A stretch of 35,807 nucleotides of DNA, from positions 1-35,807 of the IMG/VR virus record IMGVR_UViG_3300042465_001868. The stretch is one strand, 5' to 3'. Within the stretch, counting starts at the first letter, position 1; the number at the start of each line of letters is the position of its first letter. Under the pieces are notes generated by a model that saw only the letters and a list, made by a program, of their open reading frames with translations, was not told the DNA's origin and did no database searches. This DNA comes from a virus. Below are positions 100-33,601 of this stretch, in pieces. The position numbers and the translations under genes are program-made.

Positions 100-1533
100 A
101 TGTTCCATTCCGAGCATCTGCAGGAAAAGTGGGCACCACTCCTCAACTATGAGGGTCTTGATCAAATCAAAGATTCCCATCGTAGAGCGGTAACCGCCGT
201 CCTGCTCGAAAACCAAGAAAAATTTTTAAGAGAAGAAGCTGCATTTGGTAGCAGCTTCAACCTGATGGAAAACCCAACCAACTCAGCTAATGCTGTTGGT
301 GGTTCTGGTGGTTTCGGTGCTGGGTCTGCTGCTGCAGGTCCTACCGCAGGTTTCGACCCAGTTCTGATCTCACTGATCAGACGTTCTATGCCTAACCTGG
401 TCGCATATGACCTGGCTGGTGTTCAACCTATGAGTGGTCCTACTGGACTCATCTTTGCGATGCGTTCCCGTTATAACACCCAGAGTGGAACCGAATCATT
501 CTACAACGAAGTTGATAGTGCTTTCTCTGGTCAAGATAGTGGACTTGATGAGTCTGCAGGATTCTCTGATGCTGCTGTTGGTCTTGGTACGACTACTCAG
601 TCCGGCACCAACCCTTCAATCCTGAACCCTGTTGGAACCGCAACCTCGACCGCATATAATGTTGGTCAGGGCATGGTAACTGGTGATGCTGAAAACCTTG
701 GCGATGGTGCTGGTGATCAGTTCAACCAGATGGCATTCTCGATCGAGAAAGTCACCGTTACTGCAAAGTCCAGAGCACTGAAGGCCGAGTATTCACTCGA
801 ACTGGCACAAGACCTCAAGGCAATTCATGGTCTGAATGCTGAGGCTGAACTCGCAAACATTCTCTCAACCGAGATTCTTGCTGAGATCAACCGTGAAGTT
901 ATCAGAACCATCTACAAGATTGCTGAACAGGGTGCTGTAGAAAATACCGCAACTGCTGGTGTATTTGACCTCGATATCGATTCCAACGGTCGTTGGTCGG
1001 TTGAGAAGTTCAAGGGTCTTCTGTTCCAGATCGAAAGAGATGCTAACAGAATTGCTCAGAGAACTCGTCGTGGAAAGGGTAACATCATCATGTGCTCTGC
1101 TGACGTTGCTTCAGCACTGACCATGGCTGGTGTTCTTGATTACACCCCTGCTCTGAATGCAAACCTGAACGTTGATGATACTGGCAACACCTTTGCTGGT
1201 ACTATCCAAGGTAAGTACAGAGTATACATCGACCCATATTCGGCAAACCTTGCTGCCGATAACGGTGGTCTCGCACAAGGCACCAACCAATACTACGTTG
1301 TTGGTTATAAGGGTTCCAGTGCATATGATGCTGGTCTGTTCTATTGCCCATATGTTCCTCTCCAAATGGTACGTGCCGTTGGTGAGAACACCTTCCAGCC
1401 CAAGATCGGCTTTAAGACCCGTTATGGTATCGTTGCAAACCCATTTGCAGAAGGTACTACTCAGGGTCTGGGTCGTCTGCGTGTCAACAGCAACCGTTAC
1501 TACAGAAGAGTTGCTGTTAAGAATTTGATGTGA
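100..1533 (+). CDS. 23: Major capsid protein gp23
   Basis: This is the T4-type major capsid protein, which forms the hexamers of the head shell. It has 477 residues, shorter than T4 gp23 (521) as is usual in cyanophages. The N-terminus (EKWAPLLNYEGLDQIKD) and the Gly/Ala-rich stretch at residues 64-80 are family hallmarks. T4 gp23 is matured by gp21 cleavage after a hydrophobic-x-Glu site; here L55-M56-E57 just before the Gly-rich segment is a plausible site (inference). Codon use is rich in C-ending, translationally favoured codons, unlike the AT-rich genes that follow, which fits very high expression. A 46-nt gap separates it from gp22 and a strong terminator follows the stop. Confidence 0.97.
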   Translation: MFHSEHLQEKWAPLLNYEGLDQIKDSHRRAVTAVLLENQEKFLREEAAFGSSFNLMENPTNSANAVGGSGGFGAGSAAAGPTAGFDPVLISLIRRSMPNLVAYDLAGVQPMSGPTGLIFAMRSRYNTQSGTESFYNEVDSAFSGQDSGLDESAGFSDAAVGLGTTTQSGTNPSILNPVGTATSTAYNVGQGMVTGDAENLGDGAGDQFNQMAFSIEKVTVTAKSRALKAEYSLELAQDLKAIHGLNAEAELANILSTEILAEINREVIRTIYKIAEQGAVENTATAGVFDLDIDSNGRWSVEKFKGLLFQIERDANRIAQRTRRGKGNIIMCSADVASALTMAGVLDYTPALNANLNVDDTGNTFAGTIQGKYRVYIDPYSANLAADNGGLAQGTNQYYVVGYKGSSAYDAGLFYCPYVPLQMVRAVGENTFQPKIGFKTRYGIVANPFAEGTTQGLGRLRVNSNRYYRRVAVKNLM

Positions 1534-4852: not shown

Positions 4853-4901
4853 AGCCTGATCTTCAAACCCAACAAAGGTATTCTACACAGTTTTAGACAC
4901 C

Positions 4902-4930: not shown

Positions 4931-4954
4931 TCATACATATTATGAGATAACCTA

Positions 4955-6490: not shown

Positions 6491-6491
6491 A

Positions 6492-8460: not shown

Positions 8461-8474
8461 ATCATCAAAAGATA

Positions 8475-8612: not shown

Positions 8613-8615
8613 ATA
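8608..8615 (+). promoter_or_regulatory. Late promoter TATAAATA
   Basis: Exact late octamer directly on the terminator T-run. The following leader (ACTAAAAAGCATTTGTAA) is nearly identical to that at 24017 and close to that at 24887. The start is expected near 8621, giving a 14-nt leader to ATG 8635. Confidence 0.8.
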
Positions 8616-8634
8616 ACTAAAAAGCATTTGTAAC

Positions 8635-9273
8635 ATGAACGCACAAGAACTTCGCAATCTTCAAGAAGCATATATGGAAGTTGTTGAAAATCAGAAACTT
8701 GATGAAGGAGAAAAACCATTACCATATGGTCGTATGATGAAAAAGTCTGATGAACTTGCTGATTCTGATGATAAAAAGAAAAGAAACAGAGCAGCAAAGA
8801 TTTACCTAGCAGCAAATGCACCAAAAGGACCAAAAGTTAAGGTTAGAAAAGAACAAGTAGACCTCTACGACATTATCCTCTCACATCTTCTTGATGAAGG
8901 ATATGCTGAAACACCAGAAGCAGCAGAAGCAATTATGGTGAACATGAGTGAAGAGTGGAGAGAAAGTATTATGATTGATGAGGGTCTTGATATGAAAACT
9001 TTCAAGGCAAATCGTAAAAAAGCAAAAGCATCTGCTGCTCGTGCTGATTCTGTGAAGAGAGGTCATGTAGGTAAGGAATGGTATAACAGTGGTAGAAGGT
9101 ATTCTCCCGATGAAGCAAAGAGAATGCGTTCAAAACTGGATGATGCAGAAAGACGTACAAGACATCGTAGTGCTGTTGATCCTGATGATGAGGATGATAA
9201 TAACTACTCTGCAGACAAGACTAAGAATCCTAAGAAACTTCGCAAACAACAAGCGATGGGAGAACTTGGATAA
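8635..9273 (+). CDS. Putative virion-associated protein, late-expressed
   Basis: 212 residues, no enzyme motif recognised. The N-terminus (MNAQELRNLQEAYMEVV) and a central acidic helix-turn-helix-like segment (DLYDIILSHLLDEGYAETP, then EAAEAIMVNMSEEW) are shared with the protein at 24037 (LDIFDVVLEFLQAEGFAET) and partly with 27036 ([22 protein letters not shown]), so these form a paralogous family. The C-terminal half is very basic and charged (RRTRHRSAVDPDDEDD). It sits alone between a terminator/late promoter and a terminator, implying late expression. Such proteins are often annotated as structural in cyanophages; packaging in the head is an inference. Confidence 0.75.
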   Translation: MNAQELRNLQEAYMEVVENQKLDEGEKPLPYGRMMKKSDELADSDDKKKRNRAAKIYLAANAPKGPKVKVRKEQVDLYDIILSHLLDEGYAETPEAAEAIMVNMSEEWRESIMIDEGLDMKTFKANRKKAKASAARADSVKRGHVGKEWYNSGRRYSPDEAKRMRSKLDDAERRTRHRSAVDPDDEDDNNYSADKTKNPKKLRKQQAMGELG

Positions 9274-9304
9274 GTCGTTAGACCACTTTTTAAACTGGCA
9301 CACT

Positions 9305-9330
9305 AGAGGGTTTTACCACCCTCTTTTTTT
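9305..9330 (+). terminator. Intrinsic terminator
   Basis: Stem AGAGGGT / ACCCTCT (9305-9311 / 9318-9324) with a 6-nt loop and a run of T to 9330; it closes the single-gene late unit. Confidence 0.87.
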
Positions 9331-9331
9331 G

Positions 9332-9337
9332 TATAAT
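9332..9337 (+). promoter_or_regulatory. -10 element TATAAT after terminator
   Basis: Perfect TATAAT one base after the terminator T-run; no convincing -35 at 15-18 bp. It would give a start near 9344, downstream of the first ATG (9336) of the next ORF, which supports the ATG at 9360. Confidence 0.5.
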
Positions 9338-9359
9338 GGGTTCATACGAAACGAATCCG

Positions 9360-11546
9360 ATGCCCGTTCGACACGAAATCAAATCTCAACTTGCAAAGTT
9401 GCTTGCTACTGAAGATCTTGTGGTTGAGCACAAGAAAGTTTCTACTGCTTGCTTCAACGTTCATACTCGTGTTCTAACTCTTCCTCTGTGGGAGAAAGCA
9501 AGTAACCTTGTCTATGATCTTCTGGTGGGTCATGAAGTGGGTCACGCTCTCTTCACTCCCGATGAGGATTGGTTGGATAAAGTAAAAGTTCCTCCCCAGT
9601 TTGTGAATGTAGTTGAGGATGCTCGTGTTGAGAAGTTGATGAAACGCAAGTATGCTGGACTTGCGAAGACTTTCTTCAACGGATATAAGGAATTGAATGA
9701 GGGTGATTTCTTTCAACTTGCTGATGAGGATATCTCTACTTTCAACCTTGCTGACCGAGTAAATCTTTACTTTAAGGTTGGAAACTTTATTACTCTGGAT
9801 TTTAAACCAGAGGAAAAACAAATTATTGATTTGATTTCTGTATCCGAAACTTTTGCAGATGTTCTGATTGCTGCAGAAGAACTTTACAAATACTGCAAGA
9901 AAGAAAAGGAGCAAGAACAAAAGGTTGCTGACTTTGATTCTCATGAAATGAGTGGAGATTCTCAGTCTCCCGCAAGTGAAATTGTGGAGACAAATGACTC
10001 TTCTTCTGAGGGAGAAGGTGAGAGTAATAACTCTCAACCAGAAGAGGGTGATGGGTCCTATGGAGGAACTGCTCAAGGAGATCAGACACCAGTAAAATCT
10101 GGTGATGATAATAGTGAACCTGAAGTTCGCACAGCTGATTCTCTAGAAGAAAAGATTCGTGATCTTGTAAAAGATGATACATACGAAAACATTTATGTTG
10201 AAGTTCCTCAATTAAATCTTGATACTGTTATTGCCAAGAACTCTGATGTTCATAAAGAGATTGATTTTTCTTTTGAACAACAACAGAAACTTCATAATAG
10301 TCATGCAAATGAGAAAGGATATACTCCAGTAAATCTTTATAAAGAATCTGATATGGAATTCAAGAAGTTTAAATCTTCTGCGCAGAAAGAAGTGAATTAT
10401 CTTGTGAAAGAGTTTGAATGTCGTAAAGCAGCAGATCAGTATGCTCGCGCATCAACTGCTCGCACTGGAGTTCTTGATACTACACGTCTCCATACTTACA
10501 AGTACAACGAAGACTTATTTAAAAAAGTTTCTGTAATTCCTGATGGTAAGAATCATGGTCTGGTGTTTGTACTGGACTGGAGTGGTTCTATGTGTGATGT
10601 GATGCTTGATACTTGTAAGCAACTTTTCAATCTTATTTGGTTCTGTAAGAAAGTGTCTATTCCTTTTGAGGTTTATGCATTCACTAACGAGTGGCGTCGT
10701 GCGGAATATGATTATGAAAACGACCGTTATATCGCTGCTGATCGCATCCCCCATTATCAAAAGAAAGAGAGTCTTTTGGTTGTAGATGAAACTTTTTCTA
10801 TGATGAATATTCTTACAAGTAAAGTAAATGGTAAAGAATTGGAACATCAACTTCTCAATATCTGGCGTCTTGCTTATTGTTTTGATAGAACTTATCAATC
10901 TCCATATACATATCCAAATCGTCTGTGTCTTTCTGGAACTCCTCTAAATGAGGCTCTAATTTCACTGCACCAAATTCTTCCTAAGTTTCAGAAAGATAAC
11001 AAACTCCAGAAGGTTCAGTGTATTGTTCTAACTGATGGTGAAGCAAGTCAACTTGTTTACCATAAAGAGGTTCATCGTTCTTATTCAAAAAATCCTATCC
11101 TTGGGACTGGTTATGTTCATCCCGAAAATACTTTCCTTCGTGATCGTAAACTTGGAACAACATATAATGTTGATCATGGTTATCATGCTTTTACCGATAC
11201 TCTTCTTAGGAACCTCAAGGATAAGTTTTCTTCCATGAACTTTATTGGTATTCGTGTTCTTGAGAGCCGTAGTGCTTACAATTTCATCAAACTATATCAC
11301 TCTCAACTTGATAAGCAGTATGAAAAAATCCAGAGTGACTGGAGAAAACTGCGTAGTTTCACTATCACCAACTCTGGATATGATGCATACTTTGGAATGT
11401 CTGCATCGGCACTTTCTCAGGATACTGAGTTTGAAGTTGCCGAATGTGCTACAAAATCTCAAATCAAATCTGCTTTTGTCAAATCTCTTAAAACTAAGAA
11501 ACTAAATAAGAAAGTTCTTGGTGAATTTATTTCTTTGGTGGCATGA
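9360..11546 (+). CDS. CobT-like VWA protein with zincin (HEVGH) motif
   Basis: 728 residues. Counting from the upstream ATG at 9336, an N-terminal zincin-type HEVGH motif (66-70) is followed by NVVEDARVEKLMKRKYAGL (91-109), which resembles the CobT ARVEAIGA region. A long Ser/Asp/Glu-rich linker spans about 205-270, and a C-terminal von Willebrand A domain starts with the MIDAS DWSGS (414-418), with SGTPLNEAL and VLTDGEAS as later MIDAS elements. It pairs with the CobS-like ATPase downstream, as in MoxR/VWA systems. Whether it is a protease, a chelatase subunit or a remodelling adaptor is unknown; CobN is not in the window. Start 9360 is preferred because the TATAAT at 9332 would begin transcription after ATG 9336. 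Confidence 0.85.
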   Translation: MPVRHEIKSQLAKLLATEDLVVEHKKVSTACFNVHTRVLTLPLWEKASNLVYDLLVGHEVGHALFTPDEDWLDKVKVPPQFVNVVEDARVEKLMKRKYAGLAKTFFNGYKELNEGDFFQLADEDISTFNLADRVNLYFKVGNFITLDFKPEEKQIIDLISVSETFADVLIAAEELYKYCKKEKEQEQKVADFDSHEMSGDSQSPASEIVETNDSSSEGEGESNNSQPEEGDGSYGGTAQGDQTPVKSGDDNSEPEVRTADSLEEKIRDLVKDDTYENIYVEVPQLNLDTVIAKNSDVHKEIDFSFEQQQKLHNSHANEKGYTPVNLYKESDMEFKKFKSSAQKEVNYLVKEFECRKAADQYARASTARTGVLDTTRLHTYKYNEDLFKKVSVIPDGKNHGLVFVLDWSGSMCDVMLDTCKQLFNLIWFCKKVSIPFEVYAFTNEWRRAEYDYENDRYIAADRIPHYQKKESLLVVDETFSMMNILTSKVNGKELEHQLLNIWRLAYCFDRTYQSPYTYPNRLCLSGTPLNEALISLHQILPKFQKDNKLQKVQCIVLTDGEASQLVYHKEVHRSYSKNPILGTGYVHPENTFLRDRKLGTTYNVDHGYHAFTDTLLRNLKDKFSSMNFIGIRVLESRSAYNFIKLYHSQLDKQYEKIQSDWRKLRSFTITNSGYDAYFGMSASALSQDTEFEVAECATKSQIKSAFVKSLKTKKLNKKVLGEFISLVA

Positions 11547-11568
11547 TGGACAGTTGGACAACTGTCCA
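11547..11568 (+). repeat. Perfect inverted repeat after the VWA gene
   Basis: TGGACAGTTG / CAACTGTCCA, a perfect 10-bp palindrome around a 2-bp centre starting at the base after the stop codon. It lacks a T-run of its own and stands just before a terminator-like hairpin. It may be an operator, a 3'-end stabilising hairpin or part of a double terminator. Confidence 0.8.
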
Positions 11569-11571
11569 CTG

Positions 11572-11594
11572 GGGGTCCTTGAGATCCCTTTTTT
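11572..11594 (+). terminator. Intrinsic terminator between the VWA and CobS-like genes
   Basis: GGGGTC / GATCCC stem (one G-U pair) with loop CTTGA and six T. Together with the upstream palindrome this is a tandem hairpin terminator. Confidence 0.75.
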
Positions 11595-11598
11595 GCTC

Positions 11599-11604
11599 TA
11601 TAAT
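11599..11604 (+). promoter_or_regulatory. -10 element TATAAT upstream of the CobS-like gene
   Basis: Perfect TATAAT after the terminator, 24 nt before ATG 11628; no clear -35. The leader shares GTTGAAACGAAAC-like sequence with the leader of the preceding gene (TACGAAACGAA). Confidence 0.5.
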
Positions 11605-11627
11605 GACTATGTTGAAACGAAACACAC

Positions 11628-12719
11628 ATGGCACTCTCCTCCGACTACATCCGAACTTCTCTTCAGGCACTGTACGGTAATAACATTACCAGTGCTGATG
11701 TTCGTGCATGGTGTAATCTGAATGATGCAAACTATCAAACAGTAACTAAGAAAATTGATGAGTTTAAAACAGGTCGTGGTAAATGGAATCTTGAAGTAAC
11801 ACAACAAAAGGTAGAAGAAATCGAACGTACTTTCCAAGCACCCGCAGTGGTTCCTCCTGTAGAGCAAAATCTTATTCCTGAAAAAGATGATACCTTCGTC
11901 AAGTTTGGTAACTTTGCTGATGTTAAAAAAATTATTCAGTCCCGTCTCTTTTATCCTACGTTCATTACGGGTCTTTCGGGTAATGGTAAAACGTTCTCTG
12001 TGGAGCAAGCATGTGCTCAACTTAATCGTGAACTAATCCGTGTAAATATTACGATTGAAACTGATGAAGACGACCTTATCGGGGGTTTCCGCCTTATTGA
12101 TGGAAACACTGCTTGGCACAACGGACCCGTTATTGAGGCACTTGAACGTGGTGCTATTCTTCTTCTGGATGAAATCGACCTTGCTTCTAACAAAATTTTG
12201 TGTCTCCAATCTATCCTTGAAGGTAAAGGTGTCTTCTTGAAAAAGATTGGTCGTTGGGTAAAACCTGCTGCTGGGTTTAACGTGATTGCTACCGCAAACA
12301 CCAAGGGCAAAGGTTCTGATGATGGACGATTCATCGGCACCAACGTGCTCAACGAAGCATTCCTGGAACGATTTCCTGTGACCTTTGAGCAGTCCTATCC
12401 CGCTCCTGCTACTGAGCAAAAGATTCTGGAAGGCATCGCTCTGGACCTTGGTGTGGAAGACCGTGACTTCTGCAAACGTCTTGTAGACTGGGCAGATATC
12501 ATCCGTAAGACCTTCTACGATGGTGGTATTGAGGAAATCATCAGCACCCGTCGTTTGGTTCACATCATTCGTGCTTACAGCATCTTTGGTAACAAAGCAA
12601 AAGCAATTGATGTTTGTACTGCACGATTTGATGATGAAACCAAGCAAGCATTCATCGAATTGTATGATAAGGTTGATGCTGACTTTCAGATGCTCGTTGA
12701 CGAACCTCAAGTAAACTGA
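11628..12719 (+). CDS. cobS: CobS-like MoxR-family AAA+ ATPase
   Basis: 363 residues. Walker A GLSGNGKT (115-122), Walker B LLLDEID with D181-E182, sensor 1 in FNVIATANTKGKG, and a CobS/MoxR-type segment FLERFPVTFEQSYP. An N-terminal extension of about 90 residues precedes the AAA core. Cyanophage homologues are usually named CobS, after the cobaltochelatase ATPase of aerobic cobalamin synthesis. The neighbour is a VWA protein resembling CobT, so the pair is a MoxR-VWA module. A cobalamin role is not shown by the sequence because no CobN is seen here. It has its own -10 element and terminators on both sides. Confidence 0.88.
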   Translation: MALSSDYIRTSLQALYGNNITSADVRAWCNLNDANYQTVTKKIDEFKTGRGKWNLEVTQQKVEEIERTFQAPAVVPPVEQNLIPEKDDTFVKFGNFADVKKIIQSRLFYPTFITGLSGNGKTFSVEQACAQLNRELIRVNITIETDEDDLIGGFRLIDGNTAWHNGPVIEALERGAILLLDEIDLASNKILCLQSILEGKGVFLKKIGRWVKPAAGFNVIATANTKGKGSDDGRFIGTNVLNEAFLERFPVTFEQSYPAPATEQKILEGIALDLGVEDRDFCKRLVDWADIIRKTFYDGGIEEIISTRRLVHIIRAYSIFGNKAKAIDVCTARFDDETKQAFIELYDKVDADFQMLVDEPQVN

Positions 12720-12727
12720 TAGAATAT

Positions 12728-12755
12728 GGGGAGGTAAAAAGTGCCTCCTCTTTTT
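12728..12755 (+). terminator. Intrinsic terminator after cobS
   Basis: GGGGAGG / CCTCCTC stem (one G-U pair), 9-nt loop, then T5. It closes the cobS unit. Confidence 0.8.
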
Positions 12756-12760
12756 ATGAT
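12755..12760 (+). promoter_or_regulatory. -10 element TATGAT at head of replisome operon
   Basis: TATGAT (5 of 6) merges with the terminator T-run, as at 9332 and 11599. The start near 12767 favours ATG 12777 for the next gene. No -35 is evident. Confidence 0.4.
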
Positions 12761-12776
12761 TGAACAAACTATTACT

Positions 12777-13103
12777 ATGACTGAACCTACTAATCATCTT
12801 TGGAAATACAACGAAGATAAAATTCTCAAAGATGTTGAGGACTATGTAACTAGCACCTATGGTAGTCACTACTGTGGGCATAATGAAGACTATAAAGATA
12901 TTCAAACTATCGATTTGATGGCAGCAAAAGACCTTGCAGTTGGTTTTTGCCAATCAAATATTCTTAAGTATGGAAGTCGTTATGGTGATAAAGATGGACG
13001 CAATAAGCGTGACCTTCTCAAAGTCATTCACTATGCTATGCTTCTGCTCCACTTCGATGGGCATTACACCCGTAAAGATAATGGACTTTACGAATTCCGT
13101 TGA
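12777..13103 (+). CDS. DUF3310-like protein
   Basis: 108 residues. The segment SHYCGHNEDYKDIQTIDLM, then FCQSNILKYGSRYG and KRDLLKVIHYAML, matches the DUF3310 pattern (conserved HY, then NxxKYxxRxG, then DLxKAxxY) common in phages as a small protein of unknown, possibly nucleotide-related, function. Candidate starts are GTG 12741 (inside the terminator, rejected), ATG 12756 and ATG 12777; the last is chosen from the -10 position. It precedes the clamp gene by 2 nt. Confidence 0.78.
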   Translation: MTEPTNHLWKYNEDKILKDVEDYVTSTYGSHYCGHNEDYKDIQTIDLMAAKDLAVGFCQSNILKYGSRYGDKDGRNKRDLLKVIHYAMLLLHFDGHYTRKDNGLYEFR

Positions 13104-20812: not shown

Positions 20813-21819
20813 TGGATTTCCTTAAAGATATTGTAAAAGAGATTGGTGATGACTTCACTAAACTTGCAGCAGATATTGACGAAACAGAAACTTATGTCGA
20901 TACGGGGTCATACATTTTTAATGCACTGGTTTCAGGTAGCATATTTGGTGGTGTATCTGGGAATAAGATTACTGCTATTGCTGGAGAGTCTTCTACTGGA
21001 AAGACTTTTTTCTCTCTCGCAGTGGTTAAGAACTTTCTTGATACTCATCCCGATGGTTACTGTCTCTACTTTGACACTGAGGCTGCTATCACCAAATCTT
21101 TGATCGAATCCCGTGGAATTGATACTACTCGTCTGGTTGTTGTTAACGTCGTTACTATTGAAGAGTTTCGTACAAAGGCACTCAAAGCGGTAGACATGTA
21201 TCTCAAGAAACCTCTAGAGGAACGCAAACCTTGTATGTTTGTGCTAGACTCTTTAGGTATGCTCTCCACAACTAAAGAGATTACTGATGCACTGAATGAA
21301 AAAGAAGTTCGAGACATGACTAAATCTCAACTTATTAAAGGTGCCTTCCGAATGCTCACACTTAAATTAGGTCAAGCAAATGTCCCGCTTATTGTCACAA
21401 ATCATACATACGATGTCATCGGAGCTTATGTACCAACGAAAGAAATGGGAGGAGGTTCTGGACTCAAGTACGCAGCAAGCACGATCATTTATCTCAGCAA
21501 AAAGAAAGAAAAGGACGGAACGGAAGTGGTCGGCAATATTATTAAAGCTAAGACTGCTAAGTCGCGTTTGAGTAAGGAGAACAAAGATGTTGAAGTCCGT
21601 TTGTATTATGATGAGCGCGGTCTTGATCGTTACTATGGTCTTTTGGAACTTGGTGAGATTGGTGGACTCTGGAAGAATGTAGCAGGACGTTATGAGATTG
21701 ATGGTAAGAAACTTTATGCTAAGCAGATTCTGAAAGAACCTGAAATATACTTCACTGAAGAAGTGATGCAACAATTGGACGAAATCGCACGTAAGGAATT
21801 TAGTTATGGAGAAAGTTGA
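20812..21819 (+). CDS. uvsX: UvsX RecA-like recombinase
   Basis: 335 residues (T4: 391). Walker A GESSTGKT (58-65), Walker [12 protein letters not shown], the DNA-binding loop region around [15 protein letters not shown]. It forms filaments on single-stranded DNA and drives strand invasion with UvsY. The start overlaps the gp43 stop (TAATG) and the 3' end overlaps gp41 by 14 nt. Confidence 0.96.
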
Positions 21820-23182
21820 GTTTCTAATTCTTAGAAACCTGTTACATAATGAGGAATATGTAAGAAAAGTTATACCATTTCTAAAATCTGAATACTTTGA
21901 GGATACGAATCAAAGAATTGTCTTTGAAGAAATTCTGTCATTCATTCAAAATTATAATCAACCAGCAACAAAAGAAGTTCTTTGTATTGAAGTTGAGAAA
22001 CGCAAAGATATTAATGATACTTCTTTTAAGGAAATCGTCCATCTGATTCAAAATCTCGATGATGTTCCGATTGAATTTGGTTGGTTGGTAGATACCACGG
22101 AAAAGTGGTGTCGTGATCGTGCTATTTACATCGCACTTATGGAGTCTATCCATATTGCAGATGGTAAAGATGAGAAGAAAAATCGTGATAGTATTCCTAG
22201 TATTCTTTCAGATGCTTTAGCAGTATCTTTCGATACACATATCGGACACGATTATCTGCTAGACTACGAACAAAGATACGAATCCTATCATAAGAAGGAA
22301 GAGAAAATTGAATTCGACCTTGAATACTTTAACAAAATCACAAAAGGTGGTTTACCTAATAAGACTCTCAATATCGCTCTTGCTGGTACGGGTGTCGGAA
22401 AGAGTCTCTTTATGTGCCATGTTGCTGCTTCCGTCTTATTGCAAGGCAGGAACGTTCTCTACATCACTCTTGAGATGGCGGAAGAACGAATTGCAGAACG
22501 AATTGACGCAAACCTTCTTAATGTACCGATTCAGGATATTGGGGATCTTCCGAAACAGATGTTCGAGAACAAGGTCACAAACCTTGCTAAGAAGACACAA
22601 GGCACTCTAATTATCAAAGAGTATCCAACTGCATCCGCACACTCTGGGCATTTCAAATCTCTTCTGAGTGAACTTGCTTTGAAAAAGTCATTCCGTCCAG
22701 ATATTATCTTTATTGACTATCTGAACATTTGTGCATCTTCACGATATAAGGGAAATCTTTCTGTCAACTCTTATTCTTATATCAAGGCAATTGCAGAAGA
22801 ACTTCGTGGTCTTGCTGTAGAATTTAATGTTCCTATCGTCAGTGCTACTCAAACAACTCGTTCTGGTTATGGTTCTTCTGATGTGGAACTGACTGATACC
22901 TCAGAATCTTTCGGTCTTCCTGCCACTGCAGACCTTATGTTTGCTCTGATTTCTACAGAAGAACTCGAAGAACTGGGTCAGATTCTTGTAAAGCAACTCA
23001 AGAATCGTTATAATGATCCAACTATTCATAAACGTTTTGTGGTTGGTATTGATCGTGCAAAGATGCGTCTTTATGATTGCGAACAGTCTGCTCAGAATGA
23101 TATCCTTGACAATAAACAAGAAGAGGAGTATGATTTTGAAGATAGAAAACCAAAGAAATCATTTGAGGGATTTAAGTTTTGA
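21806..23182 (+). CDS. 41: Replicative DNA helicase gp41 (DnaB-like)
   Basis: 458 residues (T4: 475). Walker A GTGVGKS (194-200), Walker [11 protein letters not shown], and SATQTTRSG as the DnaB motif H4 region. The N-terminal 150 residues are the helical domain. It is the hexameric fork helicase and partner of primase gp61. It overlaps uvsX by 14 nt. Confidence 0.95.
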
Positions 23183-23989: not shown

Positions 23990-24009
23990 CCCTTCGGGGT
24001 CTTTTTTTT
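23988..24009 (+). terminator. Intrinsic terminator with UUCG tetraloop
   Basis: GACCC-TTCG-GGGTC followed by T8. The C(UUCG)G tetraloop is exceptionally stable. The hairpin overlaps the preceding stop codon and its T-run flows into TATAAATA. Confidence 0.92.
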
Positions 24010-24016
24010 ATAAATA
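24009..24016 (+). promoter_or_regulatory. Late promoter TATAAATA
   Basis: Exact late octamer on the terminator T-run; start near 24022. The AAATA of the promoter pairs with TATTT (24026-24030) and CT (24018-24019) with AG (24024-24025), one bulged A, forming the leader hairpin. Confidence 0.82.
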
Positions 24017-24036: not shown

Positions 24037-24735
24037 ATGGATCCTAAAGAACTACGTGGTTTAATGGAAGCATATTCTGAAGTTTATGCTCCTATTGACG
24101 AAGCAATCACCAGCGAAAAGGGTAAAGCAAAAGCAGCAGAAATGATTGCTAAGCGTTCCACTCCTTCTGGTAGAGCAAAGTCTGGTCAAGGTGCTTCTGT
24201 TGCTGCAATTAAACATATTAGTCGTGCTAATGTAGATAATCTTGGAGGAACACCACCTAATCCAAAAATTGCTAAAAATCCAGTTAAGTCTAGATCTTAT
24301 GGTGGAACTGGAAACAAAGCAGCAAGAAGAGCAGCAGCACTTAAGAATGAAGAACTTGATATTTTTGATGTAGTTCTTGAGTTCCTCCAAGCAGAAGGAT
24401 TTGCTGAAACTTTGGAAGAAGCAAAGTGGATGATGGCAAATATGATTGATGAAGAGATTGTTGATGCAATTCTTGATGAAGCAATCACTAGCGAAAAAGG
24501 TAAAGCAAAAGCAGCAGAAATGATTGCTAAGCGTTCTACTCCTTCTGGTAGAGCAAAAGCAGGTCAAGGTGCTAATGTCGCACTAATCAAGCACATCGGA
24601 CGCTCTAATAGAGACGGACTTGGGGGAACTCCTCCTAACCGTAAAGTAGCAGGTTCCAATTGGCCAAAATCATATTCTGGAATTGGGGGAACAGGAAACA
24701 AAGCAGCAAGAAGAGCAGGAACTTATAAGGACTGA
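24037..24735 (+). CDS. Putative virion-associated protein with internal duplication
   Basis: 232 residues. It starts MDPKELRGLMEAYSEVY like the protein at 8635. Residues 22-102 and 148-232 are two copies of one basic repeat (EAITSEKGKAKAAEMIAKRS, ...TPSGRAK, ...GGTGNKAARRA), flanking an acidic helical core (LDIFDVVLEFLQAEGFAET) shared with 8635 and 27036. No enzyme motif is seen. It is driven by a late promoter with the same leader as 8635, suggesting a late, packaged, possibly DNA-binding protein (inference). Confidence 0.75.
   Translation: MDPKELRGLMEAYSEVYAPIDEAITSEKGKAKAAEMIAKRSTPSGRAKSGQGASVAAIKHISRANVDNLGGTPPNPKIAKNPVKSRSYGGTGNKAARRAAALKNEELDIFDVVLEFLQAEGFAETLEEAKWMMANMIDEEIVDAILDEAITSEKGKAKAAEMIAKRSTPSGRAKAGQGANVALIKHIGRSNRDGLGGTPPNRKVAGSNWPKSYSGIGGTGNKAARRAGTYKD
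24100..24720 (+). repeat. Two direct repeats inside the gene at 24037
   Basis: Copy 1 about 24100-24339 and copy 2 about 24478-24720, both beginning GAAGCAATCAC and with long near-identical stretches at the start (AAAGCAAAAGCAGCAGAAAT in both). The high DNA identity suggests recent duplication or gene conversion. Confidence 0.85.
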
Positions 24736-24793: not shown

Positions 24794-24803
24794 CTTTATA
24801 TTT

Positions 24804-24876
24804 GGGGAATTAGCACAGTTGGTAGTGCGCCTGATTTGCATTCAGGAGGTCAGGAGTTCGAGTCTCCTATTCTCCA
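24804..24876 (+). tRNA. trnA: tRNA-Ala (anticodon TGC)
   Basis: 73 nt with full cloverleaf: acceptor GGGGAAT / ATTCTCC, D stem GCAC / GTGC, anticodon stem CCTGA / TCAGG with loop TTTGCAT (anticodon TGC), T stem AGGAG / CTCCT with loop TTCGAGT, discriminator A73. The G3-U70 pair, the key identity element for alanyl-tRNA synthetase, is present. No CCA tail is encoded beyond the coincidental C71-C72-A73. It would read GCA and GCU-type Ala codons, which are frequent in the flanking Ala-rich late genes. Confidence 0.95.
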
Positions 24877-24881
24877 TTTCT

Positions 24882-24906: not shown

Positions 24907-25692
24907 ATGACTAAGGTAAAGGATGACCAGGCATTAATTGATGGTGATGCTCCTGGTGCAAAACCAATAACATCTAATGCTGGATTTTTATATGAAGAAA
25001 ATTTAATTAAAGACCTTAGATCCAAAGGATTTACTTGTGGAGATCCTGCAGGAGCTGATAATGCTAAGGCTGACTTGGAAATAACACTTCCAAAAAATGC
25101 TCCTAAAGTTACTAAGTTTGAGTTAAAGGAAAAATTATCAGCTGATTTTGCTCAGTTAAATATGGATTATGATACAACAATTAATAAATTTTATATAGAT
25201 GAGAGGAAGAGTAGTAATCAAAAAGAAGCTGCTCAAACTATGATAGGAATTGCAAAAGAATTTAATATTGTTGGTCAAGCAAATAATTGGTGGAAACCAG
25301 AAAAAAATCCCCCTCAAAGATTTGTTCTTGGTAATGATTATTCTAATTTAGCAAAAAGAAAAATAGCAAGAAAATTGGATCTGAAAAATTTTCCCGACAA
25401 GTTTCTCATGGAAGGAAAAGGTGCTGCCGAAGCAGTTGAAAAATACTATAATTCAAAAAATACTTATTATATTCAAGTAAAGGGTTTTGGATTATATTAT
25501 ATGGGTAAAGATATTGAAAAATTTGGTGTACCAAGATTTTCTTCTATGGTTGGGAAGAGCAATATTAGAATAAGGATAAAAACAAATTCTGCCAGTCAAG
25601 AAAGATGGTCTTTTTTAATGGCTCTTAAAATTTCTGGATTGAAAAAAAGCAATTATGATTTAGATAAAGATCCTTCGTTTTTGTTGAATTAA
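24907..25692 (+). CDS. PD-(D/E)XK nuclease-like protein
   Basis: 261 residues. FLYEENLIKDLRSKGF (helix with E30/E31), D56 in KADLEIT, E72-x-K74 in FELKEK and Q83 in DFAQLN follow the order E...D...ExK...Q of the PD-(D/E)XK nuclease core. The C-terminal half is basic and unassigned. Codon use is clearly more AT-rich (many AAA, ATA, TTA) than flanking genes. It lies directly after a tRNA; some PD-(D/E)XK homing enzymes (I-Ssp6803I) target tRNA loci, so a homing role is possible. A virion-associated nuclease is the alternative, given the late-type leader. Confidence 0.65.
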   Translation: MTKVKDDQALIDGDAPGAKPITSNAGFLYEENLIKDLRSKGFTCGDPAGADNAKADLEITLPKNAPKVTKFELKEKLSADFAQLNMDYDTTINKFYIDERKSSNQKEAAQTMIGIAKEFNIVGQANNWWKPEKNPPQRFVLGNDYSNLAKRKIARKLDLKNFPDKFLMEGKGAAEAVEKYYNSKNTYYIQVKGFGLYYMGKDIEKFGVPRFSSMVGKSNIRIRIKTNSASQERWSFLMALKISGLKKSNYDLDKDPSFLLN

Positions 25693-25698
25693 TAAATA
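25691..25698 (+). promoter_or_regulatory. Late promoter AATAAATA
   Basis: NATAAATA match overlapping the previous stop codon; start near 25704, 15-nt leader to ATG 25719. TTAATA (25689-25694) can pair with TATTAA (25705-25710). Confidence 0.65.
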
Positions 25699-25718: not shown

Positions 25719-27023
25719 ATGAAGAGTTTTTTCCAATTTTTAACTGAGGCAACACAATCTCAGGCATCATTACAAGCAAAGAAACTCAATCTTAAGAGTG
25801 ATGGGCATGGGGGATGGTATGATTCCCGTGGAGAATTTGTTGCGAAAACTGAACAGGGAAAACTCAAGTTCTATAAGAGGGGTGAAAAAGTAGGGCAAAG
25901 AGATGTTCCTCCCGAAACGAAAGGAAAAGCAGCAACTCCAACAACATCTCAAGCAAAGACACAACAACAAGCACCCACACAGAAGAAATCACCTGCTGCA
26001 CCGGAAGAAGAAGGACAAGATACTGCAAGTGACACTCTGACTGTTGTATTTGGTCGTTTCAATCCACCAACAGTAGGACATGAGAAACTTCTAAAGTCTG
26101 CAGATAAAGTTGCCGCTGATGGAGACCTTAAGATTTATCCTTCAAGAACACAGGATCCTAAGAAGAATCCTCTTGATCCTGATATGAAGATTTCATTCAT
26201 GAAGAAGATGTTCCCTGACTATGAAGAGAACATTATTAATGATGCTGAGATGAAATCAATTTTTAATGTTCTGATTGCAGCAGCAGAATCTGGATATTCA
26301 AATGTAAACATAGTCGTTGGTTCTGATAGACAAGCAGAGTTTGAAAATCTTGCTCAGAAATACAACGGAGATCTTTATGATTTCGATTTGATTCGTGTTG
26401 TATCTGCTGGTGTTCGTGATGCAGATGCTGAAGGTGTATCTGGAATGTCCGCATCTAAGATGAGAAAGGCTGTGATGGATGATGACTTTGAATCATTCCG
26501 TAAAGGGACTCCTGAGACACTTGATGATGGTGATGCTCGTTCTTTATTTGATGCAGTTCGTCAAGGAATGGGTGCAAAGAAATCTAAAGTTCAGAAAGAA
26601 AGTTATGCACTCTGGGAGATTGCTCCTAAGTTTGATATGTTCAATCTCCGTGAGCATTATGTCACCAAAAAGATTTTTAGAATGGGTGATATTGTAGAAA
26701 ACTTAAATACTGGATTGGTTGGAGAAATCATTCGTAGAGGTGCTAATCATCTTATTTGTGTAACCGAAGAAGGTTTTATGTTTAAATCTTGGATTAGAGA
26801 TGTGATGGAGTATACTGAGATAAAAATGGAAAGAAAGGAAAGAGTTCCTGGAAAACCAAATACTCTCGTTGGAACTGGTGGATACTTTAAGTATGCTGCT
26901 GATATGACACCTGGATTTGAGAAAGGTGATAAGATGAATCTGCAACCTGGAGCAAAACCATACAGTGGGTATAAGCAATCTAATGTGAAGGAATTCATAA
27001 ATAAGTATAAGGTAAAGAACTAA
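25719..27023 (+). CDS. Late protein with nucleotidylyltransferase (NMNAT-like) domain
   Basis: 434 residues. Residues about 105-260 form a cytidylyltransferase/NMNAT-type Rossmann domain: VVFGRFNPPTVGHEKLL (HxGH-type motif with the first His replaced, TVGH), NIVVGSDRQ, and SGMSASKMRKAV (ISSTxxR-type motif). The N-terminus MKSFFQFLTEATQ and the Gln/Pro-rich linker (about 70-100) are not enzyme-like and resemble starts of other late virion-type proteins. The C-terminal 130 residues contain a VVENLNTGLVG-like small beta domain. It may be packaged and modify NAD or lipid/nucleotide precursors after entry (inference); the substrate is not readable. Confidence 0.8.
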   Translation: MKSFFQFLTEATQSQASLQAKKLNLKSDGHGGWYDSRGEFVAKTEQGKLKFYKRGEKVGQRDVPPETKGKAATPTTSQAKTQQQAPTQKKSPAAPEEEGQDTASDTLTVVFGRFNPPTVGHEKLLKSADKVAADGDLKIYPSRTQDPKKNPLDPDMKISFMKKMFPDYEENIINDAEMKSIFNVLIAAAESGYSNVNIVVGSDRQAEFENLAQKYNGDLYDFDLIRVVSAGVRDADAEGVSGMSASKMRKAVMDDDFESFRKGTPETLDDGDARSLFDAVRQGMGAKKSKVQKESYALWEIAPKFDMFNLREHYVTKKIFRMGDIVENLNTGLVGEIIRRGANHLICVTEEGFMFKSWIRDVMEYTEIKMERKERVPGKPNTLVGTGGYFKYAADMTPGFEKGDKMNLQPGAKPYSGYKQSNVKEFINKYKVKN

Positions 27024-28749: not shown

Positions 28750-28783
28750 AAGGAGACTCTTGAATACAAGGGTCCCCTTTTTT
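28750..28783 (+). terminator. Intrinsic terminator
   Basis: AAGGAGACTCTTG / CAAGGGTCCCCTT, a 13-position stem with one mismatch and one G-U pair, loop AATA, then a T-run that merges with TATAAATA. Confidence 0.87.
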
Positions 28784-28790
28784 ATAAATA
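28783..28790 (+). promoter_or_regulatory. Late promoter TATAAATA
   Basis: Exact late octamer on the terminator T-run; start near 28796, 27-nt leader. AAATATT (28786-28792) can pair with AATAATTT (28800-28807, one bulge). Confidence 0.8.
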
Positions 28791-28822: not shown

Positions 28823-29347
28823 ATGGCACTCTGGGGAAATAATGATGCAAAGGGTTCCGGTGGTACAGTATCACTTGATTACAGCACCCTTGTAGTAACT
28901 GGTTCTGGAACCACTTTCGGTCAAGTAGGAGCCGCAGCAACGGGTGATGTAATTAGATTTGGTCCAAGAAGTGAAATTGGAAATGCTGTGATTGTTGGTA
29001 TTGCAAGCACAACTCAACTTTCTATCGCATCAACGATGGGTCTTAGTGGTGCTGCTATTGCTGCTACAACTTTCTATGTTAGTGAACTGCCAAAGTACAC
29101 TGTCCTTGATTCTCGTTGGTCTGAGATCAATACTAATTATGAACCACACATTTATGGTGTTGCTGATGGTGGAATTGCAGCAGCACAGGGAACTTCATAT
29201 GCCCTTACTCATCAAGGATGGGTTGGTGTGACAACATATCTTGATAATACAGGAGCATTAAGAGTTAAGACTGAAACTCTCGTTGCGATGTCTGGTATCA
29301 CTACAGGCAACTTGCCAATTTATGACCAGGATCCAACTGTTGCATGA
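28823..29347 (+). CDS. Putative virion structural protein
   Basis: 174 residues, rich in Gly, Ala, Thr and Ser, with beta-strand patterns (YSTLVVTGSGTTFGQV; GNAVIVGIASTTQLSIAST) and no enzyme motif. The N-terminus MALWGNNDAKGSGG and the WSEINTNYEPHIYGVADGG region are typical of cyanophage proteins listed as structural. It has its own late promoter with the canonical octamer. Codon use is like gp23, suggesting high expression. It may be a head decoration or neck protein; undecided. Confidence 0.75.
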   Translation: MALWGNNDAKGSGGTVSLDYSTLVVTGSGTTFGQVGAAATGDVIRFGPRSEIGNAVIVGIASTTQLSIASTMGLSGAAIAATTFYVSELPKYTVLDSRWSEINTNYEPHIYGVADGGIAAAQGTSYALTHQGWVGVTTYLDNTGALRVKTETLVAMSGITTGNLPIYDQDPTVA

Positions 29348-29966: not shown

Positions 29967-30333
29967 AGTAGCAATCTTAGAACAAAAACTAGAAGATCTT
30001 AAAGATATCATCGTCAAGATAGATGATGCTATTGAAAAATTAAGTGAAGTAAATAGTAATGTAACTAAGATGCTCGCGGTCCATGAGCAAAGGATCACCA
30101 AGCAAGAGGAAACCGACACTATACTCTTTGCTAAAATTGACAAACTCCGTGATAAAGTTGACAGGGATTATGACGCACTTATTACAAGAGTACAAACGAT
30201 AGAGAAGAGAGTTTGGATGGCAATCGGAGCAATTGCCTGCATAACTTTTCTTGTCAACAATACCCGTGTCATAGAAATCTTGACATTAGAACCTCAGGCA
30301 TCTATAATAGAGCAACGCAACTTTAAGGCTTGA
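29950..30333 (+). CDS. Coiled-coil membrane protein, XhlA-like
   Basis: 127 residues. Residues about 5-88 are a heptad-rich coiled coil (ILEQKLEDLKDIIVKIDDAI; LFAKIDKLRDKVDRDYDALI), followed by VWMAIGAIACITFLVNN (about 90-106), a single membrane segment, and a short tail. This layout resembles XhlA-type haemolysin/holin-associated proteins, so a lysis or membrane-anchoring role is possible but unproven. It overlaps the preceding gene by 17 nt. Confidence 0.75.
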   Translation: MAEEIKVAILEQKLEDLKDIIVKIDDAIEKLSEVNSNVTKMLAVHEQRITKQEETDTILFAKIDKLRDKVDRDYDALITRVQTIEKRVWMAIGAIACITFLVNNTRVIEILTLEPQASIIEQRNFKA

Positions 30334-30335
30334 TT

Positions 30336-31304
30336 ATGGATTTTGTTGATGTTAAGTACATCAATTTGATTTCTCCACGACTTCAGAAATTTAAAAAAGT
30401 AAAGAATAATCTTTTTAATTTTCGGTGCCCTATTTGTGGAGATTCTCAGAAGAATAAGAATAAAGCACGAGGATACCTATATCAAGTCAAAAACAATACA
30501 AACTTTAAGTGCCACAACTGTGGTCTGAATATATCTTTCAATAATTTTTTAAAACAACTAGATATTAACACTCACAAGCAATATACATTTGAAAAATTTA
30601 AAGAGGGAACTACAGGAAAAAACTTTGTCGTTGATGAACCAGAGTTTAAGTTTGAAACTCCCAAGTTCAAACCAAAGTTGGATTTGCCAAGAGCATCAGA
30701 AAATCCTGACTCAAGGGCATATCTGGAAAGAAGAAAACTAAACCCTTATAAATTTTATTACACTGAAAAATTTAAGGAGTGGACCAACTCTTTAAAACTC
30801 ACATTTGACTCTACAGTTAAAGATGAACCAAGGATTATTATTCCTTTGTTCTATCAAGATACCTTAGTCGGATTTCAGGGAAGAGCACTCGGTCCATCAA
30901 AGATTAAATACATTACTGTGATGCTTAATGATGACGCACCAAAAATCTATGGTCTTGATGAAGTCGAAAAAAATCAAATTGTATACATCACCGAAGGTCC
31001 ATTTGACTCAACATTCGTTCGCAACTCAATTGCTATGTGTGGAGCTGATGGTGATATTGATAAGTGGGGTATTAGCAGGCGTGTTTGGATTTACGATAAC
31101 GAACCACGTAATGCAGAAATCGTCAGGAGAATCCAATCTAAAATTGAGAGTGGAGAATCCGTCGTCATTTATCCAACCACAGTGACTCAAAAAGATATTA
31201 ATGATATGGTTCTATCTGGACTTGATGTTCAATCTATGATAGAATCTAATACCTATTCTGGTCTAGAAGCAAAACTCAAATTTACCACCTGGAAGAAAAT
31301 ATGA
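30336..31304 (+). CDS. 61: DNA primase gp61
   Basis: 322 residues (T4: 342). An N-terminal zinc finger uses C31, C34, C59 and C62 (CPIC...CHNC). The TOPRIM domain has VYITEGPFDSTF with the catalytic Glu and WIYDNEP as the Asp motif. It makes primers with helicase gp41. Start ATG 30336 is preferred over TTG 30330; AAGG lies 7 nt upstream. TTGATTATG at the start is identical to that of gp45, a possible RegA target. It overlaps nrdA by 4 nt. Confidence 0.93.
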   Translation: MDFVDVKYINLISPRLQKFKKVKNNLFNFRCPICGDSQKNKNKARGYLYQVKNNTNFKCHNCGLNISFNNFLKQLDINTHKQYTFEKFKEGTTGKNFVVDEPEFKFETPKFKPKLDLPRASENPDSRAYLERRKLNPYKFYYTEKFKEWTNSLKLTFDSTVKDEPRIIIPLFYQDTLVGFQGRALGPSKIKYITVMLNDDAPKIYGLDEVEKNQIVYITEGPFDSTFVRNSIAMCGADGDIDKWGISRRVWIYDNEPRNAEIVRRIQSKIESGESVVIYPTTVTQKDINDMVLSGLDVQSMIESNTYSGLEAKLKFTTWKKI

Positions 31305-33601
31305 GCAACGGTCTAAAGGTTACAAAGAGAAATGGATCTATTGAGAGTATTGATCTCGATAAGATGCATGTGATGGTTGAAGAGGCATGTAAGGGTCTTG
31401 CAGGGGTCTCTGCAAGTCAAGTTGAGATGAAGTCAGGTATTCAATTTTATGATGGAATAACAACTTCAGAGATTCAAGAGATCCTGATTCGCAGTGCATC
31501 CGATTTGATTGATCTTGAGCATCCTAATTATCAATATGTTGCTGCACGTTTACTTCTCTTTGCTGTTCGCAAGCAACTCTATGGGAAGATGAAAGAACTT
31601 CCTACTATGGAGCAACACATTATTGATTGTGTTTCTGCTGAGGTTTACGATAGTGATATCTATAATAAGTATTCTCAAGAAGATATTGAACGTGCGGAAT
31701 CATTTATTGATCATGACCGTGACTTTTTGTTTACTTATGCTGGATTGCGTCAGGTTGTTGATAAGTACCTCGTGCAAGATCGAAGCAGTGGTGGTGTATA
31801 TGAAACCCCACAGTTTATGTACATGATGATTGCTCTGACTATCTTTGCAGAGTATCCCAAAGAAACCCGTATGTCATATGTCAAGAGGTATTATGACGCA
31901 ATCTCCAAACACAAAATCAACATCCCCACACCAATCATGGCGGGAGTGCGAACTCCGCTTAGACAATTTGCTAGCTGTGTGCTTGTTGACGTTGATGACA
32001 CCCTCGATAGTATCTTTAGTAGTGATATGGCTATTGGCAGATACGTTGCACAGAGGGCGGGAATCGGCATCAACGCTGGTCGAATCCGTGGCATCAACAG
32101 CAAAATTAGAGGTGGAGAAGTTCAACACACGGGTGTTGTACCATTTCTCAAGAAGTTTGAAGCAACTGTCAGATGTTGCACGCAAAATGGCATACGAGGT
32201 GGATCCGCGACAGTCCACTTCCCAATCTGGCACCAAGAAATAGAGGACATTCTGGTTCTCAAGAATAATAAGGGTACGGAGGACAATCGTGTTCGTAAAC
32301 TTGATTACAGCATTCAGATCAGCAAACTCTTCTATGAGAGGTTCATTCAGGATGGTGAGATTACGCTTTTCTCCCCGCATGATGTACCTGGACTTTATGA
32401 TCGATTTGGACTCTCTGATTTTGATGATCTCTACTGTGCATATGAAAAGGATCCGTCCGTTAAGAAAAAAATTGTTAAGGCACAGGAACTCATTCTTAAT
32501 CTTCTCAAGGAACGTGCGGAGACAGGTCGCATCTACATTATGAATATTGATCACTGCAACTCTCACTCATCCTTCAAGGATAAAGTTGAGATGAGCAACT
32601 TGTGTCAAGAGATTACACTCCCAACTTATCCTATTCAACATATTGATGATGAGAATGGTGAGATTGCTCTGTGCATTCTCTCTGCCATTAATGTGGGTAA
32701 GGTTAAGTCTGATGAAGAACTTGAGGATCTCTGTGATCTTTCAGTTCGTGGATTAGATGAATTGATTGACTATCAGAAGTATCCTGTACGTGCTGCAGAA
32801 CTTGCTACAAAGGCACGTAGGTCCCTTGGAATTGGTTATATTGGTTTGGCACATTATCTTGCCAAACTCGGTTATGATTATTCATCACAAGAAGCATGGG
32901 ATGCAGTTCATGGTCTCTCCGAGTCCTTCCAGTATTATCTTCTGAAAGCATCTAATCAACTTGCTAAAGAGAAAGGATACTGCGAAAACTTTGGTCGTAC
33001 TAAGTATGCCGATGGAATTCTTCCTATCGACACATACAAGCAAGATGTAGACGAAATCTCTTCTATTTCACTTCAGCATGATTGGGAAACTCTTAGAGCA
33101 TCTATCCAGGAACACGGTCTCAGGCACTCAACACTGTCCGCACAAATGCCATCGGAGAGCAGTTCCGTTGTGTCAAACGCAACAAATGGAATTGAACCAC
33201 CTCGTGGATTCTTGTCCATTAAGAAATCCAAGAAAGGACCTCTTAAGCAGATTGTTCCACAGTATGCTACACTGAAGAATCATTACACCCTGTTGTGGGA
33301 TATGAAATCTAATGAAGGATATATTAATATCGTTGCAGTAATGCAAAAGTTCTTCGATCAAGCTATTTCTGGTAACTGGAGTTATAATCCAGAAAATTAT
33401 CCAGATAATGAAGTTCCAGTGTCTGTAATGGCAAATGACTTCTTGACTACATACAAGTACGGATGGAAAAATTCCTATTATCAGAATACTTACGATATTA
33501 AAACTGATGAAATTGTGGAAGAAAAGAAATCCGAATTGGAAAATCTAATTAATGAGTTAAGTTCAGTAGAGGAGGGAGAGTGTGAATCCTGTGCAGTTTA
33601 A
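31301..33601 (+). CDS. nrdA: Ribonucleotide reductase large subunit NrdA (class Ia)
   Basis: 766 residues (T4: 754). An N-terminal ATP-cone (KVTKRNGSIESIDLDKMHVM) starts the chain. The catalytic set is present: Cys in FASCVLVDVDDT, N-L-C-Q-E in SNLCQEITLP, and Cys in CILSAINVG. The C-terminal CESC provides the redox pair that regenerates the active site. It reduces ribonucleotides to deoxyribonucleotides for phage DNA. It overlaps nrdB by 20 nt. Confidence 0.97.
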   Translation: MSNGLKVTKRNGSIESIDLDKMHVMVEEACKGLAGVSASQVEMKSGIQFYDGITTSEIQEILIRSASDLIDLEHPNYQYVAARLLLFAVRKQLYGKMKELPTMEQHIIDCVSAEVYDSDIYNKYSQEDIERAESFIDHDRDFLFTYAGLRQVVDKYLVQDRSSGGVYETPQFMYMMIALTIFAEYPKETRMSYVKRYYDAISKHKINIPTPIMAGVRTPLRQFASCVLVDVDDTLDSIFSSDMAIGRYVAQRAGIGINAGRIRGINSKIRGGEVQHTGVVPFLKKFEATVRCCTQNGIRGGSATVHFPIWHQEIEDILVLKNNKGTEDNRVRKLDYSIQISKLFYERFIQDGEITLFSPHDVPGLYDRFGLSDFDDLYCAYEKDPSVKKKIVKAQELILNLLKERAETGRIYIMNIDHCNSHSSFKDKVEMSNLCQEITLPTYPIQHIDDENGEIALCILSAINVGKVKSDEELEDLCDLSVRGLDELIDYQKYPVRAAELATKARRSLGIGYIGLAHYLAKLGYDYSSQEAWDAVHGLSESFQYYLLKASNQLAKEKGYCENFGRTKYADGILPIDTYKQDVDEISSISLQHDWETLRASIQEHGLRHSTLSAQMPSESSSVVSNATNGIEPPRGFLSIKKSKKGPLKQIVPQYATLKNHYTLLWDMKSNEGYINIVAVMQKFFDQAISGNWSYNPENYPDNEVPVSVMANDFLTTYKYGWKNSYYQNTYDIKTDEIVEEKKSELENLINELSSVEEGECESCAV

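Follow-up and report, generated by a model that had tools for sequence, protein, structure and literature searches.

The T4 proteins IPII and IPIII owe their entry into the prohead core to their first ten residues (PMC9026906; PMC9958956); residues 4 and 7 of IPIII govern targeting and residues 8 and 10 processing (PMC9026906), and the tag alone brings foreign proteins into heads and thence into cells (PMC9026906; PMC9958956). T4 Alt, an injected NAD-dependent ADP-ribosyltransferase, is an enzyme packaged in the head, processed at ITE and LTE sites with ITE-6 at its N-terminus (PMC5694885). Among cyanophages, a putative 'citidylyltransferase (T4-GC190)' was detected in virions of S-SM1 (PMC3037559), and its counterparts were found in those of S-SCSM1 (ORF91, together with the surrounding ORFs 89, 90, 92, 93, 95 and 97; PMC9602691), S-SZBM1 (genes 139 and 140, the latter being the enzyme; PMC9146016) and S-CREM2 (ORFs 154-156 and 160, of which 154 is the enzyme; PMC10665884). 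Packaging of this family was thus already known before the present analysis. The cyanophage proteome papers listed virion enzymes without the power to separate cargo from contamination; peptide counts for the orthologues were low (2 in S-SZBM1, PMC9146016; 3 in S-CREM2, PMC10665884), and the authors of two of the papers, that on S-SCSM1 included, caution that CsCl virion preparations may hold carry-over (PMC9602691).

The stretch of DNA analysed here (the window) is a complete IMG/VR record of 35.8 kb, a fragment of a T4-like cyanophage with relatives among the Kyanoviridae. The protein encoded at 25719-27023 belongs to this family, which is known and has been detected in virions before. What is new is its N-terminus, a T4-type tag conserved at the positions that are functional in T4 and common to other packaged enzymes.

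The gene, its family and its surroundings

The gene order of the window runs from the major capsid protein through UvsW, gp55, gp46/47, CobS, the clamp loader, DNA polymerase and UvsX to gp41, followed by an island of unknown genes, which contains the enzyme gene, and then by gp61 primase, nrdA and nrdB. The enzyme gene occupies a conserved place, between gp41 (21806-23182) and primase (30330-31304) or nrdA (31301-33601). The T4-GC190 proteins of S-SM1, S-SCSM1 (ORF91), S-SZBM1 (S-SZBM1_140) and S-CREM2 (ORF154) likewise lie between gp41/mazG and gp61/nrdA, with an identical order of gp41, enzyme and gp61-nrdA in S-SCSM1 and with the S-CREM2 copy placed after gp55.

100..1533, plus strand: major capsid protein gp23, with a candidate prohead-protease site LME57/N
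24037..24735, plus strand: gene whose product is homologous to virion protein 89 of S-SCSM1 and begins MDPKELRGLME/A, with a gp21-like site
24803..24877, plus strand: tRNA-Ala (TGC) within the island of virion-protein genes, in synteny with S-SCSM1
24907..25692, plus strand: gene just before that of the enzyme, for a probable PD-(D/E)XK-type nuclease with invariant D56, E72 and K74
25691..25698, plus strand: late-promoter-like octamer AATAAATA, about 28 bp before the ATG (T4 late consensus, TATAAATA)
25719..27023, plus strand: nucleotidylyltransferase gene of the T4-GC190 / PHROG 395 family, ATG start, 434 aa
27036..28487, plus strand: counterpart of S-SCSM1 virion proteins 92 and 93 (DUF3008-like part)
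28823..29347, plus strand: gene for a protein that shares 57% identity with virion protein 95 of S-SCSM1

The predicted product has a mass of about 48.6 kDa (about 47.3 kDa without residues 1-10) and is basic, with a pI of 8.8. It matches the PHROG 395 'cytidyltransferase' profile (E=4e-104) and 561 phage records, mostly of Synechococcus and Prochlorococcus phages, 378 of which cover at least 80% of its length, and it is 64.5% identical to S-SCSM1 ORF91 over 100%. The orthologue in P-SSM2 bears the label T4-GC 190, a cyanophage core cluster named 'cytitidyltransferase'; full-length homology together with the catalytic core places the window protein in the same family. Identity to the S-SM1, S-SCSM1, S-SZBM1 and S-CREM2 members, which carry the tag as well, is at most 64.5%, and nothing essential differs from them; what varies is the presence of a DGHG module (see below), the length of the C-terminal tail and a Thr or His in the first catalytic motif. 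A query of cluster C for further relatives returned one locus. The 'NMNAT' of S-CBWM1 was considered as an orthologue and set aside, as it is a short protein of another kind and lacks the tag.

The original prediction, which placed a nucleotidylyltransferase core between an N-terminal and a C-terminal part of other character, holds on both counts, as the AlphaFold2 model contains such a core and the conservation profile resolves both flanking parts as conserved modules, each set off from the core by a variable linker.

Residues 1-10, 25719..25748, plus strand: predicted capsid-targeting sequence MKSFFQFLTE, with prohead-protease cleavage predicted between E10 and A11; the conserved block comprises residues 1-11
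Residues 12-62, 25752..25904, plus strand: helix and small beta 'DGHGGWYD' (DGHG) module, pLDDT about 82, delimited as residues 25-62 in the conservation profile
Residues 63-104, 25905..26030, plus strand: low-complexity variable linker, mean column conservation 0.36, pLDDT below 50
Residues 105-285, 26031..26573, plus strand: nucleotidylyltransferase catalytic core of the HxGH superfamily (PHROG 395, AlphaFold2, Foldseek)
Residues 112-121, 26052..26081, plus strand: GRFNPPTVGH, the T/HxGH motif, with R113 and H121 invariant
Residues 148-157, 26160..26189, plus strand: KKNPLDPDMK, which the alignment with 1f9a pairs with NPFTAGER in archaeal NadM
Residues 244-249, 26448..26465, plus strand: SASKMR, equivalent to ISSTxxR, with S244 and R249 invariant
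Residues 301-365, 26619..26813, plus strand: small beta-rich C-terminal domain, phrog_4808 match, AlphaFold2 pLDDT about 75

The first of the flanking modules falls within a phrog_3561 match at residues 2-66 and recurs close to the start of further packaged proteins of cyanophages (S-CREM2 gp12, S-CRM01 g128 and a protein of MC09). The tail after the C-terminal domain is variable among homologues. The C-terminal domain itself exists as a stand-alone protein in S-PM2 (p141; L265 9537-9812); the record of p141 calls it NrdB, and in several records this stand-alone form (phrog_4808) goes by 'ribonucleotide reductase A subunit / NrdB', a name that is probably wrong.

Evidence for late expression of the virion-protein island

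The original prediction had also placed the gene under a late promoter among putative packaged proteins. The neighbours bear this out, since the products of genes 24037, 27036, 28823 and 29733 (the last a homologue of S-SCSM1 virion protein 97) have homologues in S-SCSM1 that carry a virion-protein annotation. As for the promoter, AATAAATA does precede the enzyme gene, but the motif in the window alone proves little, because the bare 7-mer is not enriched there (13 found against 9.6 expected), and it was rejected as stand-alone evidence. Its strength lies only in the association with virion genes in S-SCSM1, where NATAAATA stands upstream of 17 of 47 virion genes and of 1 of 88 others (p=2e-8). 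Taken together with TATAAATA at 24009-24016 before gene 24037 and at 28783-28790 before gene 28823, this association makes late expression of the island, as judged from such motifs, well supported. Among the homologues, NATAAATA occurs within 60 bp upstream in only 64 of 254, and in several relatives the start of the enzyme gene overlaps the preceding gene.

Directly upstream of the enzyme, the product of gene 24907 retains D56 and E72-x-K74 invariantly in 14 relatives; its best Foldseek matches, EcoRV and Hjc, belong to a set that consists mostly of nucleases and is non-significant.

The N-terminal tag and packaging

How would such an enzyme enter the head? Its N-terminus, MKSFFQFLTE/A (the slash marking the predicted cut), matches that of T4 IPII/IPIII, MKTYQEFIAE/A, position by position, both conforming to MKx[FY]xxF[IL]xE, ten residues long with key positions 4, 7, 8 and 10, followed by A. 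In 46 diverse homologues, tag positions 1, 2, 4 and 7 are invariant, positions 8 and 10 carry the same residue in 91% and 98%, respectively, and positions 3, 5, 6 and 9 are variable; the strict pattern is present in 231 of 254 homologue matches. The T4 IPs are small, whereas the window tag carries a 420-residue enzyme. The original prediction had likened the protein to T4 Alt, and this comparison stands in so far as both are packaged enzymes, but the N-terminus matches the IPII/IPIII tag and not that of Alt, which is cut at ITE-6 (PMC5694885).

A pattern modelled on the two T4 tags was searched for in S-SCSM1, in most of S-CREM2, in part of S-SZBM1 and in the window, and it matched 2 genes in S-SCSM1, 4 in S-CREM2, 1 in S-SZBM1 and 1 in the window, in addition to T4 ipII/ipIII; at internal Met residues it matched 0 of 2752. 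The tagged genes of S-CREM2 encode the SAM lyase gp6, gp13, the kinase gp14 and the enzyme gp154, and all four are in the published virion list (hypergeometric p=0.003, for 52 virion proteins among about 219 genes). In S-CRM01, a like tag stands on the kinase, g129 and the enzyme, all clustered. Two proteins of about 105 aa near terminase genes bear a perfect tag and are absent from the virion lists, S-SCSM1_30 and S-SZBM1_191.

S-SCSM1_30, L003 44215-44535: MKTFKQFMSES
S-SZBM1_191, L008 27312-27629: MKSFKSFLSES

The predicted cleavage site has parallels elsewhere in the window and its relatives. The gp23 of relatives reads LAE/A or LTE/A at about residue 57, where the window has LME/N; sites of this LxE type, here at the place expected for gp23, are of the sort that the T4 protease recognises, as with ITE and LTE in Alt (PMC5694885). 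A gene for a gp21-type protease is present in S-SCSM1 and lies outside the window in the present record.

Is the enzyme then cargo, as the original prediction supposed, or could it be a late enzyme, abundant in the cell, whose presence in virion preparations is mere contamination? Contamination was raised by the authors of two proteome papers, and the catalytic domain occurs without the tag in jumbo phages, S-CAM1 and P-HM2. Against this, the protein was found in four independent virion proteomes, those of purified S-SM1, S-SCSM1, S-SZBM1 and S-CREM2, which for these relatives contradicts any absence from virions; the island neighbours are virion proteins too, and the N-terminal tag is conserved exactly at the positions functional in T4. 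Mere contamination therefore seems highly improbable. From the published proteomes of its orthologues, the window protein is almost certainly a virion protein, and, to judge by its sequence, it is very probably directed to the head by the tag. Among the papers covered by a literature search, none was found that discusses capsid-targeting sequences in cyanophages, and both the tag and its occurrence on further packaged enzymes appear to be previously undescribed.

In cluster C cyanophages, the virion proteins with such N-termini, the SAM lyase and the kinase among them, are encoded in S-CREM2 (L098) at 3837-5081, 7704-10313, 10310-10546 and 10579-12861, in S-CRM01 (L266) at 1142-3866 and in MC09 (L267) at 3476-8099. 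S-CREM2 gp12, annotated as Cas9/Csn1 and devoid of a Pfam match, has a tag-like RFASFMAEA and a DGHG module.

We lean, if only somewhat, towards the wider reading that the capsid-targeting system of T4 has been retained in marine T4-like cyanophages as a general way of injecting enzymes, in which the ten-residue tag, often followed by the DGHG module, would load interchangeable enzymes that act before the first phage transcript: the nucleotidylyltransferase in most phages and, in some, a SAM lyase, a kinase and further large proteins. Such a tag is legible in the sequence itself, and single residues of it have been tested in T4; it separates cargo from contamination, makes enzymes so far merely listed for virions into a delivery system open to testing and predicts which proteins get injected by some of the most abundant viruses of the ocean. 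The tag-less phages (S-CAM1, P-HM2 and the jumbo phages) provide a natural control, as they should not package the domain by the tag route.

The catalytic core and its likely chemistry

AlphaFold2 predicts a confident alpha/beta core at about residues 105-285, with most 10-residue blocks at or above 90. Its best Foldseek matches in the PDB are NadD, PPAT and NadM (E of about 1e-5) and, among viral structures, cyanophage 'cytitidyltransferases'. A single-sequence search of the PDB with the protein gave no match; profile matches to the PDB are led by the UPF0348 protein MJ0951 (E=4e-5), followed by the archaeal NMN adenylyltransferase MJ0541 (1f9a, E=0.0036), which is the closest named enzyme. 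The protein shares with NadM/NadR enzymes (MJ0541, 1f9a; Methanothermobacter thermautotrophicus, 1ej2) a Rossmann-like core, GRFxPx(H/T)xGH, the NP segment and Sx(S/T)xxR, so that the HxGH or TxxH motif, the SxxxR motif and the Rossmann-like fold of NMN/NaMN adenylyltransferases are all found in it; it differs in lying below the family cut-offs and in the low identity of its structural matches.

Across 11 very divergent members (cyanophage, jumbo-phage, Pseudomonas-phage and Vibrio-phage relatives), R113, P116, H121, S142, N150-P151-L152, K157, G201, D203-R204, S244 and R249 are invariant. The first-His position varies: the window has T there, and S-CREM2, P-SSM2, S-SZBM1, RaK2 and 121Q have H. 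Thr at this position is normal in PPAT and eukaryotic NMNATs, and the PDB chain 9rpk, named NMNAT, reads FNPPTfmH. The suggestion that Thr in place of His may alter activity is thus not supported, since T and H alternate within the family and 9rpk has Thr as well. The same residue, the basic pI of 8.8 and the extra N- and C-terminal modules could also be taken to indicate a catalytically dead internal head protein with a structural or DNA-binding role. This is very unlikely, given that T and H both occur at that position and that R113, H121, N150-P151, G201, D203-R204, S244 and R249 stay unchanged across relatives as distant as cyanophages and jumbo phages, so that loss of activity is not expected. 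In all likelihood, as its sequence suggests, the enzyme is active.

Which substrate it uses is less readily told. Most records name the protein a cytidyl- or 'cytitidyl'-transferase, it matches the general Pfam CTP_transf_like model, and a TagD-like cytidylyltransferase acting on CTP and glycerol-3-phosphate has been suggested (PMC9146016). However, the name stems from a generic superfamily model that covers adenylyltransferases too. The best 50 Foldseek matches in the PDB are only of the NadD, PPAT and NadM types, and the profile matches are of the NMNAT type; of the two enzymes with which the original prediction had proposed to compare it, NadM is among the best Foldseek and profile matches, and TagD is in neither set. 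The TagD-like role was accordingly rejected and has a very small chance of being correct, an NMN adenylyltransferase (NadM/NadR-like) being favoured over it. The window protein falls far below the cut-offs of the family-specific NMNAT models (TIGR01526, TIGR00482 and others) and is therefore described here as NMNAT-like rather than filed as an NMNAT. That it is an NMN/NaMN adenylyltransferase is a tentative assignment, credible but somewhat short of probable.

Alternatively, a tag-packaged enzyme might act on nucleic-acid or nucleotide ends, or on an acceptor other than NMN, in partnership with neighbours such as the PD-(D/E)XK-like protein or DUF6267, which has a ligase-type KWDGAP motif. In relatives, the gene before the enzyme encodes one or the other of these, and DUF6267 lies directly upstream in S-SSM5, S-SZBM1, S-CAM1, S-PM2 and Vibrio phage EniLVp02. 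A Vibrio-phage relative fused to a UvsW.1 domain between the genes for gp41 and gp61, a P-loop kinase-like gene adjoining the enzyme in HTVC008M and the weakness of the specific Pfam and NCBIfam models also speak for this possibility. Nonetheless, the DUF6267 motif, when searched for in the window, is absent, the neighbour differs among phages, and the fold and the best named profile matches are those of small-molecule adenylyltransferases; action on such other acceptors hence appears unlikely.

The whole is best explained, and in our view probably so, by a late-made, tag-packaged and ejected nucleotidylyltransferase of a T4-like cyanophage. The enzyme would be made late in infection; residues 1-10 would bind the prohead core as a T4-type capsid-targeting sequence, with the enzyme enclosed during shell formation; a gp21-type prohead protease would cleave after Glu10; and the mature enzyme would remain in the head with the DNA, to be ejected into the host at infection, where it would most likely use ATP to transfer AMP to a small acceptor that bears a phosphate. 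At best guess, this acceptor may be NMN or NaMN, yielding NAD or NaAD before any phage gene expression. The window enzyme would then make NAD or NaAD, unlike T4 Alt, which has another fold and chemistry and consumes NAD, and if the product is NAD, it would set the NAD supply of the host at the first moment of infection. Counted against the ejected nucleotidylyltransferase is that KVP40-like Vibrio phages with a relative already possess other NAD genes.

DUF6267 adjoins or neighbours the enzyme in many T4-like marine phages, at the following loci.

L092 4145-5014
L090 7478-8671
L097 3796-4992
L095 1532-2614
L265 6004-6582
L264 4914-6146

In EniLVp02 (L095 2623-3510), the fusion of UvsW.1 to a relative of the core is annotated 'DNA helicase', and in Pelagibacter phage HTVC008M (L264 6658-9107), the P-loop kinase-like gene immediately precedes the enzyme gene, whose product there has 596 aa. 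The family phrog_455 spans both DUF6267 and the enzyme, and a 728-aa ORF of metaG-MbCM1 (L268 2354-4540) combines the two. This apparent fusion was discarded as functional proof, because it retains an intact internal tag, MKKFSAFLSEA, at about residue 306, and two genes merged by a frameshift or an assembly error are the more likely origin.
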